Positions 1 through 6,223 of a stretch of DNA of 7,439 nucleotides are shown here, one piece after another; positions within the stretch are counted from its first letter, which is position 1, and every line of letters starts with the position of its first letter. A model generated the notes under the pieces. The model did not search any database, was not told the origin of the DNA, and worked only from the letters and a program-made list of their open reading frames with translations. Position numbers and translations under genes: made by a program. This stretch comes from Pedobacter sp. UBA1654 (GTDB taxonomy: Bacteria > Bacteroidota > Bacteroidia > Sphingobacteriales > Sphingobacteriaceae): assembly GCA_002320935.1 (NCBI GenBank), contig DCLG01000095.1, positions 43,848 to 51,286 on the forward strand, written 5' to 3'.

Positions 1-604
1 TGAAATCTGTTTCAAACAGGTAACCGCTACCTACAGCAATACCCAAAGCAACTACTCTTTCGTAAGCTTTACCAGTTGCATCCTGGAAGATCGCATAGCT
101 AGAGTTTAAACCACGGCCTTGTAAGAACATGCGGCGTAGGGAAGTACCTGAGCCTTTCGGTGCCACAAGGAATACATCAACGTCTGCAGGTGGGATAATA
201 CCAGTCTGCTCATTGAAGGTGATACCAAAGCCATGTGAGAAGTATAGTGCTTTACCTGGAGTAAGGTGCTTTTTAACTGTAGGCCACAATTCAATTTGGG
301 CGGCGTCACTCAATAAGTAGCAAATGATGGTTCCGCGCTCCAGCGCTTCTTCAATTTCGAACAGGGTCTCTCCGGGAACAAATCCATCGGAAATTGCTTT
401 ATCCCAGGTTTTTGATTCTTTGCGTTGGCCAACAATAACATTGATGCCATTGTCTTTTTGATTAAGCGCTTGTCCAGGCCCTTGTACGCCATAACCAATG
501 ATTGCTACGGTTTCATTTTTCAGGACTTCCTGTGCTCTTTCCAATGGAAATTCATCACGTGTTACTACATTTTCGTCTTTACCGCCGAAATTTAATACTG
601 CCAT
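1..604 (-). CDS. ilvC: Ketol-acid reductoisomerase, N-terminal part (cut by window edge)
   Basis: IlvC rearranges and reduces 2-acetolactate or 2-aceto-2-hydroxybutyrate to the dihydroxy acids, using NAD(P)H and Mg2+, in the cytoplasm. The frame opens with ATG at 604 and stays open to the window edge, giving 201 residues of a protein usually near 330-350. The Rossmann nucleotide motif GYGVQGPGQA lies at residues 37-46, the cofactor-specificity loop GQRKESKTW at 59-67, LLSD at 97-100, the conserved SHGFG with its histidine at 123-127, and APKGSGTSLR at 148-157. The stretch GSGTSLRRMF...GRGLNSSYA resembles the fungal (Ilv5) and Bacteroidetes form more than the E. coli form. Arg, Ser and Thr in the loop suggest NADPH preference, which is inference. 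It is the last ilv gene visible in the operon, 65 bases after ilvN. Identity is very secure; the C-terminal metal-binding domain lies outside the window. Confidence 0.96.
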   Translation of the reverse strand, partial: MAVLNFGGKDENVVTRDEFPLERAQEVLKNETVAIIGYGVQGPGQALNQKDNGINVIVGQRKESKTWDKAISDGFVPGETLFEIEEALERGTIICYLLSDAAQIELWPTVKKHLTPGKALYFSHGFGITFNEQTGIIPPADVDVFLVAPKGSGTSLRRMFLQGRGLNSSYAIFQDATGKAYERVVALGIAVGSGYLFETDF

Positions 605-1287: not shown

Positions 1288-3027
1288 TTATTTAAGTCTG
1301 ATTTCACTTACGCTGCAACCTTGCGGTACCATCGGAAATACGTTAAGTTCTTTTTCTACCATCACCTCCAGTACGAAGGATCCTTTATGTTCAAGCATCT
1401 GTGTTAGTGCCGGGATCAACTCTTCACGTGCAGTAACTTTCTTCCCGGCAATGTAATAGGATTCTGCAAGCTTGATGAAATCCGGACTGGTGATGTCTAC
1501 AAAGGAGTATCGTTTCTCATTGAACAGCTGCTGCCACTGGCGCACCATGCCTAAAAACTGGTTGTTTAGGATCATGATCTTCACATCGACACCACTTTGC
1601 ATGATGGTGCCAAGTTCCTGTAAGGTCATCTGGAAACCGCCGTCGCCAATTACAGCAACTACCGTGCGATCTGGTCTGCCGAACTTAGCACCGATTGCCG
1701 CTGGAAGGCCAAAGCCCATGGTACCCAATCCACCGCTGGTAACGTTGCTGCGGGTGTGGTTCAGTTTTGCGTAGCGGCAGGCAACCATCTGGTGCTGACC
1801 AACATCACTTACAATGATGGCTTCACCATTGGTAAGCTGATTCAGCTGGTGGATCACTTCACCCATGGTCAGTTCTCCGCTTTCTGGCTCCAGTTCTTTT
1901 TGTATCAACTGCTCCTGTTCAATCTTTTCAAATACCTTGAACTCAGCGAGCCAATCGGTATGTGTACGTTCTTCAATAAGCGCAGTCAATAATGGAAGTG
2001 TGTCTTTACAGTCTCCCCAAACCGGAACATCTGCTTTCACGTTCTTATCGATCTCTGCCGGATCGATGTCCAGGTGTACAACCTTAGCCTGAGTAGCATA
2101 TTTATCTAATCTGCCTGTTACGCGATCGTCAAAGCGCATTCCGATGGCAATCAGCACATCGCAGGAATTGGTCTGCACGTTAGGTCCATAGTTGCCATGC
2201 ATACCCAGCATACCCACATTTTGCGGGTGATCGGAAGGAATTGCACCGGCACCTAAAATGGTCCATGCAGCAGGGATACCACTCTTTTCTACAAAGGCCT
2301 GGAATTCTTTTTCAGCACTGCCCAGTAGTACACCCTGTCCAAAAAGGATGAAAGGCTTTTTTGCTGCATTGATCATTGCTGCCGCTTGTTCAATATATTC
2401 CATTCGAACATTTGGCTTTGGACGATAGCTCCGGATGTGATTACAAGGGGTATAACCTTCGTAGGCGATCTTCTGAATCTGCGCATCTTTGGTAATGTCG
2501 ATCAATACAGGTCCCGGGCGGCCGCTTTTAGCAATGTAAAAAGCTTTTGCCAGTACCGCAGGGATCTCGTTTGCATCGGTCACCTGATAATTCCATTTGG
2601 TTACTGGTGTGGTGATGTTGATTACATCTGTTTCCTGGAAGGCATCGGTACCAAGCAGGTGACTGAATACCTGACCAGTGATACACACCAATGGTGTACT
2701 ATCAATTTGTGCATCAGCCAGACCAGTTACCAGGTTGGTTGCGCCTGGGCCGCTTGTGGCGAATACCACTCCAACTCTACCTGATGTTCTCGCGAAACCC
2801 TGCGCAGCATGTGTTGCACCCTGCTCATGGCGCACCAGGATATGCTGAAGTCGCTCTTTGAAGTCATATAAGGCGTCATAAATTGGCATGATTGCTCCAC
2901 CTGGATAACCAAAGACCACTTCGGTTCCTTCAGTAATTAATCCCTCCAATAATGCCACAGAGCCGCTCACTGTCTTAAGTTCTTTCGGCGCTGCCGGGCT
3001 GATTGTTTCTTCAATTGATAATTCCAT
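1288..3027 (-). CDS. ilvB: Acetolactate synthase large (catalytic) subunit
   Basis: This ThDP- and FAD-dependent enzyme condenses two pyruvates to 2-acetolactate, or pyruvate plus 2-oxobutyrate to 2-aceto-2-hydroxybutyrate, the first common step of valine/leucine and isoleucine synthesis. With the ATG at 3027 it has 579 residues, a normal length. The N-terminal ThDP domain holds VFGYPGGAIMPIYDAL (38-53) and RHEQGATHAAQG with catalytic Glu68. The central FAD domain carries GMRFDDRVTG (296-305). The C-terminal ThDP domain has GDG at 461-463 and NN at 488-489, the GDG-x(24)-NN ThDP/Mg2+ motif. The frame stays open back to 3090, but that stretch overlaps the end of ilvD and is low-complexity ([13 protein letters not shown]), so I place the start at MELSIEET, 22 bases after the ilvD stop, preceded by AAGAAG. 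It ends 6 bases before ilvN, its partner subunit. Confidence 0.97.
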   Translation of the reverse strand: MELSIEETISPAAPKELKTVSGSVALLEGLITEGTEVVFGYPGGAIMPIYDALYDFKERLQHILVRHEQGATHAAQGFARTSGRVGVVFATSGPGATNLVTGLADAQIDSTPLVCITGQVFSHLLGTDAFQETDVINITTPVTKWNYQVTDANEIPAVLAKAFYIAKSGRPGPVLIDITKDAQIQKIAYEGYTPCNHIRSYRPKPNVRMEYIEQAAAMINAAKKPFILFGQGVLLGSAEKEFQAFVEKSGIPAAWTILGAGAIPSDHPQNVGMLGMHGNYGPNVQTNSCDVLIAIGMRFDDRVTGRLDKYATQAKVVHLDIDPAEIDKNVKADVPVWGDCKDTLPLLTALIEERTHTDWLAEFKVFEKIEQEQLIQKELEPESGELTMGEVIHQLNQLTNGEAIIVSDVGQHQMVACRYAKLNHTRSNVTSGGLGTMGFGLPAAIGAKFGRPDRTVVAVIGDGGFQMTLQELGTIMQSGVDVKIMILNNQFLGMVRQWQQLFNEKRYSFVDITSPDFIKLAESYYIAGKKVTAREELIPALTQMLEHKGSFVLEVMVEKELNVFPMVPQGCSVSEIRLK

Positions 3028-3049
3028 CTTCTTAGGTATTATGTGCAGA

Positions 3050-4747
3050 TTAATCGGTATAGGCATCGGTAACGCAGCCTTCACTGGCATTGCTTACCTG
3101 TTTCAAATATTTATAAAGTACACCGCCTTTTACTGGTGGTGGTAACTGCTTCCAGTTTGCACGGCGTGCCGCAAGTTCTTCATCTGAGATCAGGACGTCG
3201 ATGGTGTTGTTCACCGCATCAATCCGGATGATGTCATTGTCTTGTACAAGTCCGATGTTGCCCCCGGACCAGGCTTCTGGCGTGATGTGACCTACCACAA
3301 ATCCGTGGGTTCCACCGGAGAAACGGCCGTCAGTGATCAGCGCGACAGATTTCCCCAATCCGGCACCGATAATGGCAGAGGTTGGTTTAAGCATTTCAGG
3401 CATCCCAGGTGCGCCTTTCGGACCTACCTGACGGATTACGACCACATCACCCTGGTGAACCCTGCCGCTTGAAATACCTTCTATCAGCTGTTTCTCGCCG
3501 TCAAATACCCTGGCTGGCCCTTCAAACCGTTCACCTTCTTTACCACTGATTTTGGCAACAGCACCTAATTGTGCCAGATTGCCATAAAGCATTTGCAGGT
3601 GGCCGGTTGCTTTGATCGGATTCTCGATAGGTAAAATCACCTTCTGCTGTTCAAAATCAAGTTCAACAGCATCAGCTACGTTTTCGGCTAATGTTTTTCC
3701 GGTTACGGTCAGGCAATCTCCATGGATCAAGCCCACCTTTAATAAGTACTTTAACACTGCTGGTATACCACCAATGGTATGTACATCTTCCATCAAATAC
3801 TGACCACTAGGTTTTAAGTCTGCCAGTACCGGAGTATTGTCGCTGATGTGTTGAAAGTCTTTTAGTTCCAGGTTCAGTCCAACTGATTTTGACATTGCAA
3901 TCAGGTGTAGTACAGCATTTGTACTTCCGCCAAGAACCATCACCGTTACAATCGCATTGTGAAATGCTTTCTCCGTCATGATATCTGATGGGAGGATATT
4001 TTTTTCAAGCAGTACTTTAATCGCTTCACCGGCGCTTAAACATTCTGCTTTTTTCTCTTCGCTAAGTGCAGGATAGGAGGAGCTGTAAGGCAAGCTCATA
4101 CCCAATGCCTCGATTGCCGAAGCCATGGTGTTTGCCGTGTACATACCGCCGCATGCGCCTGCACCCGGACAGGTATGCCTGATGATCCCCTGATAATCTT
4201 CTTCTGAAATCTTTCCCGCAATTTTTTCACCCAATGCTTCGAAAGCGGAAACCATATTTAGTGATTTTCCTTTATAGTTCCCCGAGTGAATACTTCCACC
4301 ATAAACCATGATCGAAGGACGGTTCAAACGCCCCATTGCCATGATAGATCCTGGCATATTCTTGTCGCAACCAGGTAAAGCAATCACCGCATCGTAATAC
4401 TGCCCGCCACAAATGGTCTCTATCGAGTCTGCAATTACGTCCCTGGAGATGAGAGAGTAACGCATGCCGTCTGTGCCGTTAGACATTCCGTCACTCACCC
4501 CAATGGTGTTGAAGGTTAAGCCTACCATATCATTTTTCCAGACACCTTCTTTAACAAGCTTTGCTAAGTCATTAAGGTGCATGTTGCAGGTGTTGCCATC
4601 ATAGCCCATACTCGCTATGCCCACCTGTGCTTTCTGCATATCTGCAGTAGTAAGACCAATTCCATAAAGCATGGCTTGTGCGCCAGCCTGGGTTGGATCT
4701 TGTGTGAAGGTTTTACTGTATCGGTTTAGTTCTAAAGTGTCTGACAT
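3050..4747 (-). CDS. ilvD: Dihydroxy-acid dehydratase
   Basis: IlvD dehydrates 2,3-dihydroxy-isovalerate and 2,3-dihydroxy-3-methylvalerate to the corresponding 2-oxo acids, using an iron-sulfur cluster and Mg2+. It has 565 residues from ATG at 4747, the usual IlvD/Edd family length. Three cysteines sit in the expected contexts for cluster ligation: C54 in GNTCNMHL, C127 in the signature GCDKNMPGS, and C199 in [20 protein letters not shown]. The second family signature is represented near the C-terminus by [27 protein letters not shown] sequence (aligned over plus-strand 3260-3350), with the Ser of RFSGG as the expected catalytic base. The three-cysteine arrangement suggests a [2Fe-2S] enzyme; this is inference. 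It starts 21 bases after the ilvE stop and ends 22 bases before ilvB. The assignment to IlvD rather than a sugar-acid dehydratase is supported by the operon. Confidence 0.97.
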
Positions 4748-4768: not shown

Positions 4769-5659
4769 TTATATAAAAACTTCGTAATTCTGCTTTTCTA
4801 ATACCAGGCTTTTGTAGGTACGCTGTAAGGTTGAACCCAGGCTATCTGACCATTTCAGCGGGAAGGTGGTCTCATCAATTGACTTCATGCCGATGATTTC
4901 TGCTGCCGTTCCGCACAGAAAGGCACTGTCTGCCTGTTTAAGATCTCTGGCAGTGATTTGCTTCTCAATGTATTCGATATCAAGGCTTTTACATAGCTGG
5001 ATTACAGTTTCACGCGTAATCCCAGGTAAGATATGTCCCAAAGACGGCGTGTATAGTTTACCTGATTTTTCGATGAAGATATTCGCGCCGGGTGCTTCTG
5101 CTACAAATTCATTCTGGTCCAGTAACAAGGCTTCATCGTAACCGCGGCCTTTGGCTTCCGTTGTTGCCAGGATGGAGTTAACATAATGTCCGCTTACTTT
5201 TGCTTCCATTGGGGTTGACTTGGGATTTGGCCGCTGATAAGAAGAAATGCAAACCCTAACCTGCTTGTCACCAAGGTATGCACCCCATTCCCAGGCGCAG
5301 ATCATAATGTTTACACTTGCTGGCTCAGAAAGCGTCATGTTTGGGCTGCAATACACTAAAGGACGGATGTACGCGTCCTTTAGGTTATTCAACTCCAGTA
5401 ACTTGTAGGTTTGTCTTACCAGGTCGTCAACATTCCATTCAAATGGAATATGTACCAATTCACAGGAACGCTTTAGGCGTTCGTAGTGGCGTTTGGCTTT
5501 GAAAATCCTGGTGCCATTATGGGTGTTGTATGCACGGATTCCTTCGAATACGGCATAGCCATAATGTAAGGACTGACTGTAAAGGTCAGTGCTGGCATCC
5601 TTTGCGGGAACAAACTCGCCGTTTAAGTAAAGCTGGGTAGATGAATTGTAGTATTGCAT
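4769..5659 (-). CDS. ilvE: Branched-chain amino acid aminotransferase
   Basis: This PLP fold-type IV transaminase moves an amino group between glutamate and the 2-oxo acids of valine, leucine and isoleucine, the last step of all three pathways. It has 296 residues from ATG at 5659, close to the E. coli IlvE length of about 309. Family marks include LYLNGEFVPAKDA at the N-terminus, YAVFEGIRAY (35-44), AYIRPL with Arg99, MEAKVSGHYVNS with the probable PLP-binding Lys154, NEFVAEAPGANIF (183-195, Glu188), LPGITRETVI (211-220) and LCGTAAEI (248-255). It is the first enzyme gene of the operon, 33 bases after the T-run of the leader terminator, so its transcription would depend on read-through of that terminator. 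D-amino acid aminotransferase or aminodeoxychorismate lyase share the fold, but the EGIRAY motif and the ilv context favour IlvE. Confidence 0.96.
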   Translation of the reverse strand: MQYYNSSTQLYLNGEFVPAKDASTDLYSQSLHYGYAVFEGIRAYNTHNGTRIFKAKRHYERLKRSCELVHIPFEWNVDDLVRQTYKLLELNNLKDAYIRPLVYCSPNMTLSEPASVNIMICAWEWGAYLGDKQVRVCISSYQRPNPKSTPMEAKVSGHYVNSILATTEAKGRGYDEALLLDQNEFVAEAPGANIFIEKSGKLYTPSLGHILPGITRETVIQLCKSLDIEYIEKQITARDLKQADSAFLCGTAAEIIGMKSIDETTFPLKWSDSLGSTLQRTYKSLVLEKQNYEVFI

Positions 5660-5692: not shown

Positions 5693-5720
5693 AAAAAAGC
5701 GCCTCTTTGCTGGGGCGCTT
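5693..5720 (-). terminator. Intrinsic terminator in the ilv leader (attenuator)
   Basis: Read on the minus strand, AAGCGCC (5720-5714) can pair with GGCGCTT (5703-5697) in a perfect 7-bp stem around a 10-base loop. The run of six T covers 5698-5693, its first two bases closing the stem. It lies between the leader peptide stop (5748) and the ilvE start (5659), inside what should be one transcription unit, so it would stop the operon's own transcript rather than end a gene. Its 5' arm is also the target of a competing upstream pairing, as expected of an attenuator. Confidence 0.85.
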
Positions 5721-5757
5721 GTAAATATTCTGGGTTTAAATTCTCGTTTACAGCGCC
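5714..5757 (-). promoter_or_regulatory. Predicted antiterminator stem competing with the leader terminator
   Basis: In the minus-strand RNA, GGCGCUGUAAA (5757-5747) can pair with UUUACAAGCGCC (5725-5714): 6 bp, a single bulged A at 5720, then 5 bp, with a 21-base loop. The right arm uses the 5' arm of the terminator, so the two structures exclude each other. The left arm spans the last leader codons and includes the stop codon UAA at 5750-5748. A ribosome at that stop would mask it and let the terminator form; one stalled earlier would leave it free. The pairing is seen by eye; folding energies were not computed. Confidence 0.75.
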
Positions 5758-5831
5758 TTGTTCTTCTGAATGATCAGGAGAAGAATATTGTTAATCAGGT
5801 TGTTGACGTTGTTGAGAATTGTTGTGTTCAT
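5748..5831 (-). CDS. Leader peptide of the ilv operon attenuator
   Basis: A 27-codon frame runs from ATG at 5831 to TAA at 5748. Twelve of its residues are Ile, Leu or Val: I5, L6, V9, L12, I13, then the uninterrupted I16-L-L-L-I-I21, and the final L27. Eight more are Asn, often paired (NN at 7-8, 10-11, 14-15), giving the pattern NNVNNLINNILLLII. It ends QKNKAL. Such a peptide has no obvious function as a protein; as in E. coli ilvL/leuL, its translation would sense charged Ile, Leu and Val tRNAs. It sits between the putative promoter and the terminator ahead of ilvE, and its last codons form one arm of the antiterminator. No clear Shine-Dalgarno is seen (weak AAGAGA about 18 bases upstream), normal for Bacteroidetes. 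It could be called ilvL, but no established name is known to me for this lineage. Confidence 0.85.
   Translation of the reverse strand: MNTTILNNVNNLINNILLLIIQKNKAL
5761..5785 (-). promoter_or_regulatory. Hairpin over the Ile/Leu codon run of the leader (possible pause site)
   Basis: In the minus-strand RNA, UUCUUCU (5785-5779) and AGAAGAA (5767-5761) are perfectly complementary, giving a 7-bp stem with an 11-base loop. The stem covers the I16-I21 codons and ends just before the antiterminator arm, with which it does not overlap. By analogy with the first hairpin of trp and his leaders it could pause RNA polymerase until a ribosome loads; that role is inference. The stem is A/U-rich and may be only moderately stable. 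Confidence 0.45.
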
Positions 5832-5862: not shown

Positions 5863-5893
5863 ACAATTTAGATTTTGAGGAACGCAAAGGCAA
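5863..5893 (-). promoter_or_regulatory. Candidate promoter of the ilv leader/operon
   Basis: On the minus strand TTG (5893-5891) is followed after 20 bases by TAAATTGT (5870-5863). This approximates the Bacteroidetes arrangement TTG, N17-23, TANNTTTG, though the last two positions of the -7 box do not fit. Read as a general bacterial promoter it is TTGCCT, 17 bases, TAAATT. It would start RNA near 5856, about 25 bases before the leader ATG. Other TTTG boxes nearby (around 5885-5888 and 5897-5901 in the complement) make the exact site uncertain. Confidence 0.35.
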
Positions 5894-6191
5894 TAGCAAA
5901 TGAAAATAAATTGAAAAAAAATTTATGACTTCATAATGCTTTCAAAACAGAATAAAAAATGGTAAGGATTGGTTTTTTGATACAAATCGCTACTGTGACT
6001 ATACCAAAAGTGTTTTCGGTATTCGGTCTACATGCTATGCGTGCATTGTAAAAAACTCGAAATTCTGCGTGAAATGCTGGTGAGTCTAAAAAAATGTGTC
6101 AAAATCAGGTAGAAATTTCGCGTATAAACCAGCATGGTTTTAGAGGAACTCGGTCTGTCATTTGCTGACGTGGAGTTCGGGAGAAAAGTGC
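5894..6191. other. Intergenic stretch with no convincing gene
   Basis: About 300 A/T-rich bases separate the atpDC terminator from the ilv promoter. I see only very short frames (26 codons on plus at 6032-6112; 35 codons on minus at 6028-6135) with no recognisable content. The stretch holds an 8-bp inverted repeat (ATGCTGGT at 6074-6081 with ACCAGCAT at 6128-6135) and a two-part stem at 6146-6178 (GAACTC/GAGTTC outside, GTCA/TGAC inside). On the plus strand TTGATA (5977-5982), 17 bases, TATACC (6000-6005) looks like a generic -35/-10 pair. A small plus-strand RNA ending at the bidirectional hairpin at 6195-6223 is possible but unproven. Confidence 0.5.
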
Positions 6192-6223
6192 AAAAAAAAT
6201 CCCCCGAATTACGGGGGATTTTT
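6192..6223 (-). terminator. Strong rho-independent terminator after atpDC (potentially bidirectional)
   Basis: AAAAATCCCCCG (6195-6206) and CGGGGGATTTTT (6212-6223) form a perfect 12-bp stem with loop AATTA. On the minus strand the hairpin is followed by a T-run totalling eight bases (6199-6192) and lies 23 bases after the atpC stop, so it ends the atp unit. On the plus strand the right arm ends in five T, so it could also stop transcripts from the opposite direction. Confidence 0.93.

Follow-up and report, generated by a model that had tools for sequence, protein, structure and literature searches.

Described leader-peptide attenuators

The closest described systems are the attenuators of enteric bacteria. 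In E. coli, ilvL, leuL and ivbL are short open reading frames (ORFs) with runs of Ile, Leu and Val codons, which lie before genes of branched-chain amino-acid (BCAA) synthesis and in which an antiterminator and a terminator exclude each other. Ribosome-mediated attenuation requires that the ribosome keeps pace with RNA polymerase, and how widely transcription and translation are coupled beyond the enteric group is a matter of debate. Lyubetsky and co-workers, cited by Korolev 2016 (PMC4833913), and Vitreschak et al. have reportedly predicted classic attenuators of amino-acid operons on a genome-wide scale.

Several precedents concern Bacteroidota, according to the accessible parts of the articles. 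The Bacteroid-trp RNA (RF01692) is a predicted cis-regulatory RNA of Bacteroidetes (Weinberg 2010, PMC2864571); it lies upstream of the trp operon of Flavobacterium psychrophilum, where it was likened to the E. coli trp leader (PMC6414381). For F. psychrophilum, Guerin 2021 (PMC9723704) describes "strong clues" that operons for amino acids are preceded by leader-peptide attenuators; as distinct from the present case, "ilv" has 0 occurrences in the main text of that article, and no antiterminator appears in its section on 5' cis-regulatory RNAs. Small ORFs of Bacteroides thetaiotaomicron were described as reminiscent of leader peptides (Ryan 2020, PMC7366714), and leader genes were treated in general by Korolev 2016 (PMC4833913). 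Bacteroidota mRNAs are devoid of Shine–Dalgarno sequences (Baez 2019, PMC6847099), and neither "ilv" nor "attenuation" was found in the accessible text of that study.

An earlier note on the DNA considered here knew of no characterised case in Bacteroidetes. This stands for ilv operons as far as titles and abstracts go: none of them revealed an ilv attenuator in this phylum, and comparative surveys of attenuation may hold an earlier prediction. It does not stand for attenuation as such, which had already been suggested for operons of F. psychrophilum and for Bacteroid-trp.

The ilv locus of the window

The window, that is, the whole stretch of 7,439 nucleotides from Pedobacter sp. UBA1654 that was analysed, contains on its minus strand, in this order, atpD, atpC, a hairpin terminator (6218–6201), an AT-rich gap, a short leader ORF, an intrinsic terminator and ilvE-ilvD-ilvB-ilvN-ilvC. 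Judging from the sequence, the ORF, a pairing segment in its last codons (region 2) and the terminator very probably form a ribosome-mediated transcription attenuator of the BCAA operon. Leader-peptide attenuation ahead of the ilv operon is what the earlier note had claimed, and it is supported, as a prediction, by the frame, the pairing, the spacing and the conservation described below.

The likeness to the enteric ilv, leu and ivb attenuators lies in the short ORF with its Ile/Leu/Val run, in the hairpins, predicted to be mutually exclusive, and in the position before BCAA genes. Contrary to the enteric systems, the antiterminator strand lies here in the last leader codons, before the stop codon, the promoter motif looks like that of Bacteroidota, and one leader precedes an operon to which, in the nearest relative, leuCD, leuB, leuA and ilvA belong as well; Flavobacteriaceae, moreover, have two or three leaders in series. 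The window leader and Bacteroid-trp are both cis-regulatory predictions in Bacteroidetes, but the operon and the amino acid differ.

The leader ORF (5748–5831, minus strand) starts with ATG at 5831, has 27 codons followed by TAA (5750–5748), and translates as MNTTILNNVNNLINNILLLIIQKNKAL. Ile, Leu or Val occupy 12 of the 27 codons, and codons 16–21 (5769–5786, minus strand) form the run ILLLII, which the sequence, the leader alignment and the predicted switch point designate as the expected stall site; the frame of 27 codons, with 12 Ile/Leu/Val codons of which six are consecutive, is thus exactly as previously claimed. The perfect hairpin with a T-run that had been seen between this frame and ilvE is also there (5693–5720, minus strand), with ilvE starting at 5659. 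Sequence, fold and counterparts in relatives all point to an intrinsic terminator, whose stem, AAGCGCC (5720–5714) with GGCGCTT (5703–5697), has 7 perfect base pairs, a 10-nt loop (5713–5704) and a T-run (5698–5693). This hairpin is absent from the list produced by our pattern scan, probably due to the 8-nt loop limit of the scan. It was considered as the terminator of the atp operon, and rejected as such, as that operon has its own hairpin at 6218–6201.

The 541-nt intergenic stretch is not unusually structured overall (z of −1.69; 11 of 200 shuffles fold equally well). When it is shuffled with dinucleotide content kept, an ATG ORF with six consecutive Ile/Leu/Val codons appears in 12 of 2000 shuffles on the same strand and, in a second set that considers both strands, in 40 of 2000. 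Such an ORF together with a downstream terminator appears in 1 of 2000 (same strand) and 0 of 2000 (both strands), and pure chance was rejected on these counts as the origin of the pair.

The first gene downstream is ilvE, coding for the branched-chain aminotransferase (4769–5659; NCBIfam NF005146/TIGR01122), followed by ilvD (dihydroxy-acid dehydratase, 3050–4747; TIGR00110), ilvB (large subunit of acetolactate synthase, 1288–3090; TIGR00118), whose true start may be an internal ATG, and ilvN (small subunit of the same enzyme, 670–1287; TIGR00119), all on the minus strand and all scoring above the family cut-off. The ketol-acid reductoisomerase gene ilvC (2–604, minus strand) gives a partial match to TIGR00465, below the cut-off because the gene is truncated by the end of the window.

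The best named genome match in one scan is Pedobacter quisquiliarum, whose IlvE is 94% identical. There the operon continues, on a single strand and with gaps of at most 65 nt, with leuC, leuD, a gene for an ABC-type ATPase, leuB, leuA and ilvA, so that the leader precedes genes of the whole Ile/Leu/Val pathway and a single leader would sense all three end products. This content matches all three amino acids, in line with the remark of the earlier note that all three branched-chain residues of the leader fit the operon. The ATPase gene between leuD and leuB of this nearest relative (L214:6703–8130, minus strand) is ModF-like.

Occurrence among relatives

The main comparison set consists of the ilvE loci of the window and of 80 relatives, 81 in all; the loci are related, so that counts are not numbers of independent events. 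An ATG ORF of 10–60 amino acids in which at least 5 of 8 residues are Ile, Leu or Val occurs within 420 nt upstream of ilvE in 78 of the 81. A stricter definition, which combines a dense Ile/Leu/Val run, a terminator, pairing of region 2 with region 3 (the 5' arm of the terminator) and spacing, retains 67 of the 81 loci; of the controls, it accepts 6 of 968 tiles taken within operons, none of 405 upstream regions after shuffling and none of the 81 reverse strands. The short frame and the terminator, whose conservation in close relatives was proposed as a check, are therefore conserved, and the Ile/Leu/Val runs are retained in relatives whose N-terminal codons vary, as had been anticipated.

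Fourteen loci fall outside the strict definition. A 27-codon leader is clear in five of them (L002, L015, L020, L042 and L045). Among loci of Pedobacter and its family, L052 has a weak candidate only, and L051 is ambiguous. Among the 81 loci, the arrangement is absent from L041, L058 and L059. The contig of L059 is labelled as a Limnohabitans MAG, and Limnohabitans is a betaproteobacterium; its ilvE is close to those of Bacteroidota, and the label probably results from a binning error. In L041, from P. montanisoli, the last 300 nt before ilvE contain a promoter-like motif, TAAATTGG, and a terminator-like hairpin, and no leader ORF was found there. It is possibly a natural loss of the sensor.

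Regarding transcription, the window contains a putative promoter upstream of the leader, with a −33 element TATTG (5891–5895, minus strand) and, 20 nt further, a −7 element TAAATTGT (5863–5870, minus strand), 39 nt ahead of the leader ATG. In 29 chosen upstream regions (L041 was looked at besides), CTATTG was found in 27 and followed 17–23 nt later by TAAATTG in 26; we read this pair as a putative −33/−7 promoter of the Bacteroidota type. In 28 of the 29 regions, 25–54 nt lie between TAAATTG and the ATG of the leader, L039 having TACATTTG in place of TAAATTG; L002, L034 and L039 each lack one of the two promoter-like motifs. The earlier note implied a start ahead of the leader, and the upstream position of this promoter-like motif in 26 of 29 regions suggests that transcription may indeed begin there.

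Predicted alternative pairing and position of the ribosome

Region 2 (GGCGCU, 5752–5757, minus strand) lies in the last leader codons, (K)AL, codons 25–27. It is complementary to region 3 (AGCGCC, 5714–5719, minus strand), the 5' arm of the terminator, which also pairs with region 4, the 3' arm (5698–5703, minus strand). Regions 2 and 3 are predicted to form an antiterminator that excludes the terminator. In the centroid structure of the window, a possible region 1 (5805–5820, minus strand) is base-paired, when the RNA is not translated, to region 2 and the sequence beside it.

The proposed mechanism would be as follows. Transcription would start just upstream of the leader at TATTG-N20-TAAATTGT, and the ribosome would follow the polymerase along the leader, coupling of transcription and translation in this phylum being assumed. 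With ample supplies of charged Ile-, Leu- and Val-tRNAs, the ribosome would reach the stop codon and cover region 2 (5757–5752), region 3 would pair with region 4, and transcription would end near 5693. When any one of these charged tRNAs is scarce, the ribosome would stall at Ile, Leu or Val codons up to codon 21, with its leading edge just short of region 2; the free region 2 would capture region 3 before region 4 is made, no terminator would form and the operon would be transcribed.

The pairing was examined in the 71 of 81 ilvE loci that have a dense leader and a terminator, and the controls are mixed. The score of region 2:3 pairing is at least 15 in 66 of the 71, a value reached by 8.6% of dinucleotide-shuffled segments, and in 57 of the 71 at most 5% of shuffles of the same locus reach the observed score. 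When region 3 is swapped among terminator classes, 673 of 3066 combinations still score at least 15, probably because several classes have GC-rich cores in common. Redrawing the last codons synonymously is not decisive: only in 10 of the 71 loci do no more than 5% of the redraws match the observed pairing, because the amino acids largely fix region 2. In alignment A1, region 2 is nearly invariant, and therefore no covariation is visible there.

Regions 2, 3 and 4 change together from group to group. They read GGCGCU/AGCGCC/GGCGCU in the Pedobacter group of the window and GGAGACG/CGUCUCC/GAGACG in L033, whose ORF falls outside the strict definition. In Pedobacter leaders of the KGSL type, region 2 is of the type GGGUCGCU, with one mismatch to region 3, AGCGUCCC. 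Regions 2 and 3 are CGAGUGAGUCAGGCU/AGCCUUUCUCAUUCG in Flavobacteriaceae and GGAGGA/UCCUCC in Chitinophaga. The terminator stems of relatives thus differ in compensating ways, which is the kind of hairpin change that had been suggested as a check.

We modelled the position of the ribosome by folding the RNA downstream of it for each A-site codon (ViennaRNA, 25 °C), the first free base being 13 nt past the first base of that codon. In the window, an A site at any of codons 13–21 gives the antiterminator a predicted probability of 0.92, which falls to 0.51 at codon 22 and to 0 from codon 23, and at the same codons the equilibrium probability of the terminator rises from 0.02–0.03 to 0.81–0.86. 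Among 70 loci (the 71 above minus L055, which has no predicted antiterminator), the median offset of the predicted switch codon past the Ile/Leu/Val run is 1 codon, and the switch lies within 3 codons of the end of the run in 66; random placement of the switch gives a mean of 21.6 and a maximum of 36 such loci in 2000 draws. Region 2 and the last codon of the run are 6–15 nt apart in 65 of the 71 loci, with a median of 11, the six others being L006, L023, L034, L051, L055 and L061. The model therefore predicts a stall site so placed that a stalled ribosome would leave the antiterminator free and a ribosome finishing the leader would block region 2. This ruler is the strongest mechanistic evidence, since it links codons and RNA structure by a distance that matches a ribosome, in groups with unrelated RNA sequences.

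Equilibrium folding was modelled individually in 12 chosen loci. The flip is clear only in the window and L001, and partial in L010 and L062; in the eight others (L004, L021, L036, L039, L044, L065, L068 and L077), the finished terminator is favored at every ribosome position, which means that the mechanism there must depend on the formation of region 2:3 before region 4.

It may be argued that the leader acts on translation or RNA stability, the ribosome altering the folding near ilvE or protecting the mRNA, with a hairpin that does not terminate in vivo. The second hairpins of the Bacteroidales-like loci (see below), behind many of which the sequence is T-rich but forms no clean T-run, would suit this explanation. 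In the window and related loci, on the contrary, a T-run does follow the hairpin; that of the window ends 33 nt before ilvE, so that the ilvE start is not included, and region 2 competes for the terminator's own arm. We consider action on translation or stability to be very unlikely, compared to transcription attenuation.

Coding constraint on the leader

The attenuation model supposes that the leader is translated. Exactly 27 codons make up the leader in the window and in 30 other loci. In these 31 leaders, codons 11–13 and 15–21 are Ile, Leu or Val in 74–100% of the sequences, and codons 17–21 in 84–100%. Over codons 9–22, pairwise differences at codon positions 1, 2 and 3 amount to 1738, 1017 and 2268, the third position being the most variable and the second the least, and, among codons that differ by a single base, the share of synonymous changes is 0.515 when read in frame, as against 0.248 and 0.061 when read in the two shifted frames. 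Codons 2–8 show no coding-type pattern (1549, 1621 and 1567 at positions 1, 2 and 3) and drift freely. These figures are pairwise counts across related sequences, which describe a pattern and not independent events. They indicate that the frame is under coding-type constraint, which supports the translation of the putative leader peptide. Codon 26 is GCG in 30 of the 31 leaders, though Ala has four codons, which fits a part played in RNA pairing.

A small hairpin within the ORF (5761–5782, minus strand, codons 17–24), detected by pattern scan and fold, may be a pause hairpin. Six of the 7 pairs of its stem, CU-CUGA/UCAG-AG, are held in 26–31 of the 31 leaders, mostly through invariance, and the central pair (third base of Leu18 with first base of codon 23) in just 9 of 31; we therefore do not claim this hairpin by covariation.

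A hydrophobic peptide with a conserved central part, as seen here, would be expected if the ORF coded for a small functional hydrophobic protein, the hairpin being an ordinary terminator or a processing site without regulatory link. We give this explanation hardly any credit: the N-terminal codons have no coding-type constraint, the length varies by clade while the Ile/Leu/Val content and the pairing end are retained, other families carry unrelated peptides of the same residue type, and a plain terminator before a biosynthetic operon would keep the operon off.

Leader and terminator layouts are also known from other sensors, such as a T-box, a riboswitch or a nascent peptide whose arrest responds to another signal, but a different sensor at this place is just as improbable as a small protein, since an arrest peptide would conserve its sequence, and not residue type and codon position as is the case here, and since no Rfam family matches the window or seven representative loci at gathering score. 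A T-box or a known riboswitch is rejected on that basis (0 matches), and the covariance model of Bacteroid-trp (RF01692) likewise gives no match at gathering score in the window and these seven loci.

Other families and leaders in series

The layout predicted to work by ribosome-mediated attenuation in the window recurs, in unrelated RNA sequences, in Chitinophaga and Flavobacteriaceae. In a wider set of the phylum, where ilvD matched in 183 of 247 genomes, 76 upstream regions were taken from the lower-scoring part of the matches listed; the strict definition retains 27 of these 76 and 0 on the reverse strand.

Thirty top-scoring ilvD loci (L084–L113) form a Bacteroidales-like set, the assignment to Bacteroidales being deduced from protein scores. 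A leader with an Ile/Leu/Val-rich tail, ending 126–177 nt before the ilvD match, is present in 29 of the 30, and 24 of these 29 leaders have 51–59 codons; no leader was seen in L110 in the scan of this set. In an alignment of 28 of the 30 loci (A2, from which L110 and L103, which has a leader, were left out), pairing is seen between the segment just past the stop codon and, about 50 columns further downstream, the 5' part of a hairpin. Paired cells amount to 87.2% (mean of shuffles 81.9), cells changed on both sides to 23 (10.4) and the covariation score to 0.309 (0.209), each value being reached by 0 of 500 shuffles, and 7 pairs are changed on both sides, which 5 of 500 shuffles reach; the columns were picked by scanning the same alignment, which biases the count towards structure. 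The number of further pair types, 12, is reached by 208 of 500 shuffles and shows nothing. Slid versions of the pairing are lower in every measure, and the pair of columns 87–143 fails in 17 of the 28 loci. Rc:Rd pairing was also looked at in this set, where gaps in the alignment prevent a count. The last Ile/Leu/Val codon and the post-stop segment are a median of 11 nt apart (10–19, 28 loci). In many of these loci a second hairpin precedes a T-rich stretch, often with no clean T-run.

Two or more strict leaders are present in 9 of the 81 ilvE loci. A looser scan of 1000 nt in 13 loci of the Flavobacteriaceae type finds at least 2 leaders in 10 of them and three in five (L060, L062, L063, L064 and L070). 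The outermost, third leader lies about 425–480 nt upstream of ilvE, ahead of the two others; it is Ile-rich, of the type MNNLNIIPSIIIANVIITAAEGML, and has its own terminator-like hairpin and a weaker region 2 pairing. In L062, 18 nt separate the first T-run from the next ATG, which is too short for a promoter, so that the units seem to work one after another along a single transcript. The leader arrays in series in Flavobacteriaceae are the novel aspect of this work.

We are inclined to accept, with moderate confidence, the general picture of phylum-wide BCAA leader attenuators that operate without Shine–Dalgarno sequences, on family-unrelated RNAs sharing a ruler of about 11 nt, and as serial multi-stage switches in Flavobacteriaceae. 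In this picture, the breadth of the attenuators would imply a functional coupling of polymerase and ribosome at such leaders throughout the phylum. A conserved attenuator with a near-fixed, ribosome-sized spacing offers a direct and cheap test of coupling in Bacteroidota. The putative attenuator would serve directly as an expression switch that responds to amino acids, and it would account for how the entire Ile/Leu/Val pathway is regulated in species of the environment and possibly of the gut. How stacked attenuators sharpen a response is a question posed by the series arrays; these arrays, together with the common ruler and the implied coupling of polymerase and ribosome in a phylum without Shine–Dalgarno sites, make experiments worthwhile.

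In Chitinophaga (L068, L071–L077, L079 and L080), CCTCC is found directly before the leader ATG in 9 of 10 loci, and two bases further up in L072. This motif can pair with the GGAGG of region 2, which suggests that the start region may serve as region 1.

Last, we note that in Pedobacter the principle may extend to another pathway. Among 26 genomes of the genus with a hisG match, all 12 loci fetched (L190–L201) carry a short ORF of the type MNLTLNHHLHLHHRR upstream of hisG, a possible candidate for a histidine attenuator as far as its sequence goes. These ORFs are His-rich (HH[LV]HLHHR), and most of them start 135–142 nt before the hisG match.
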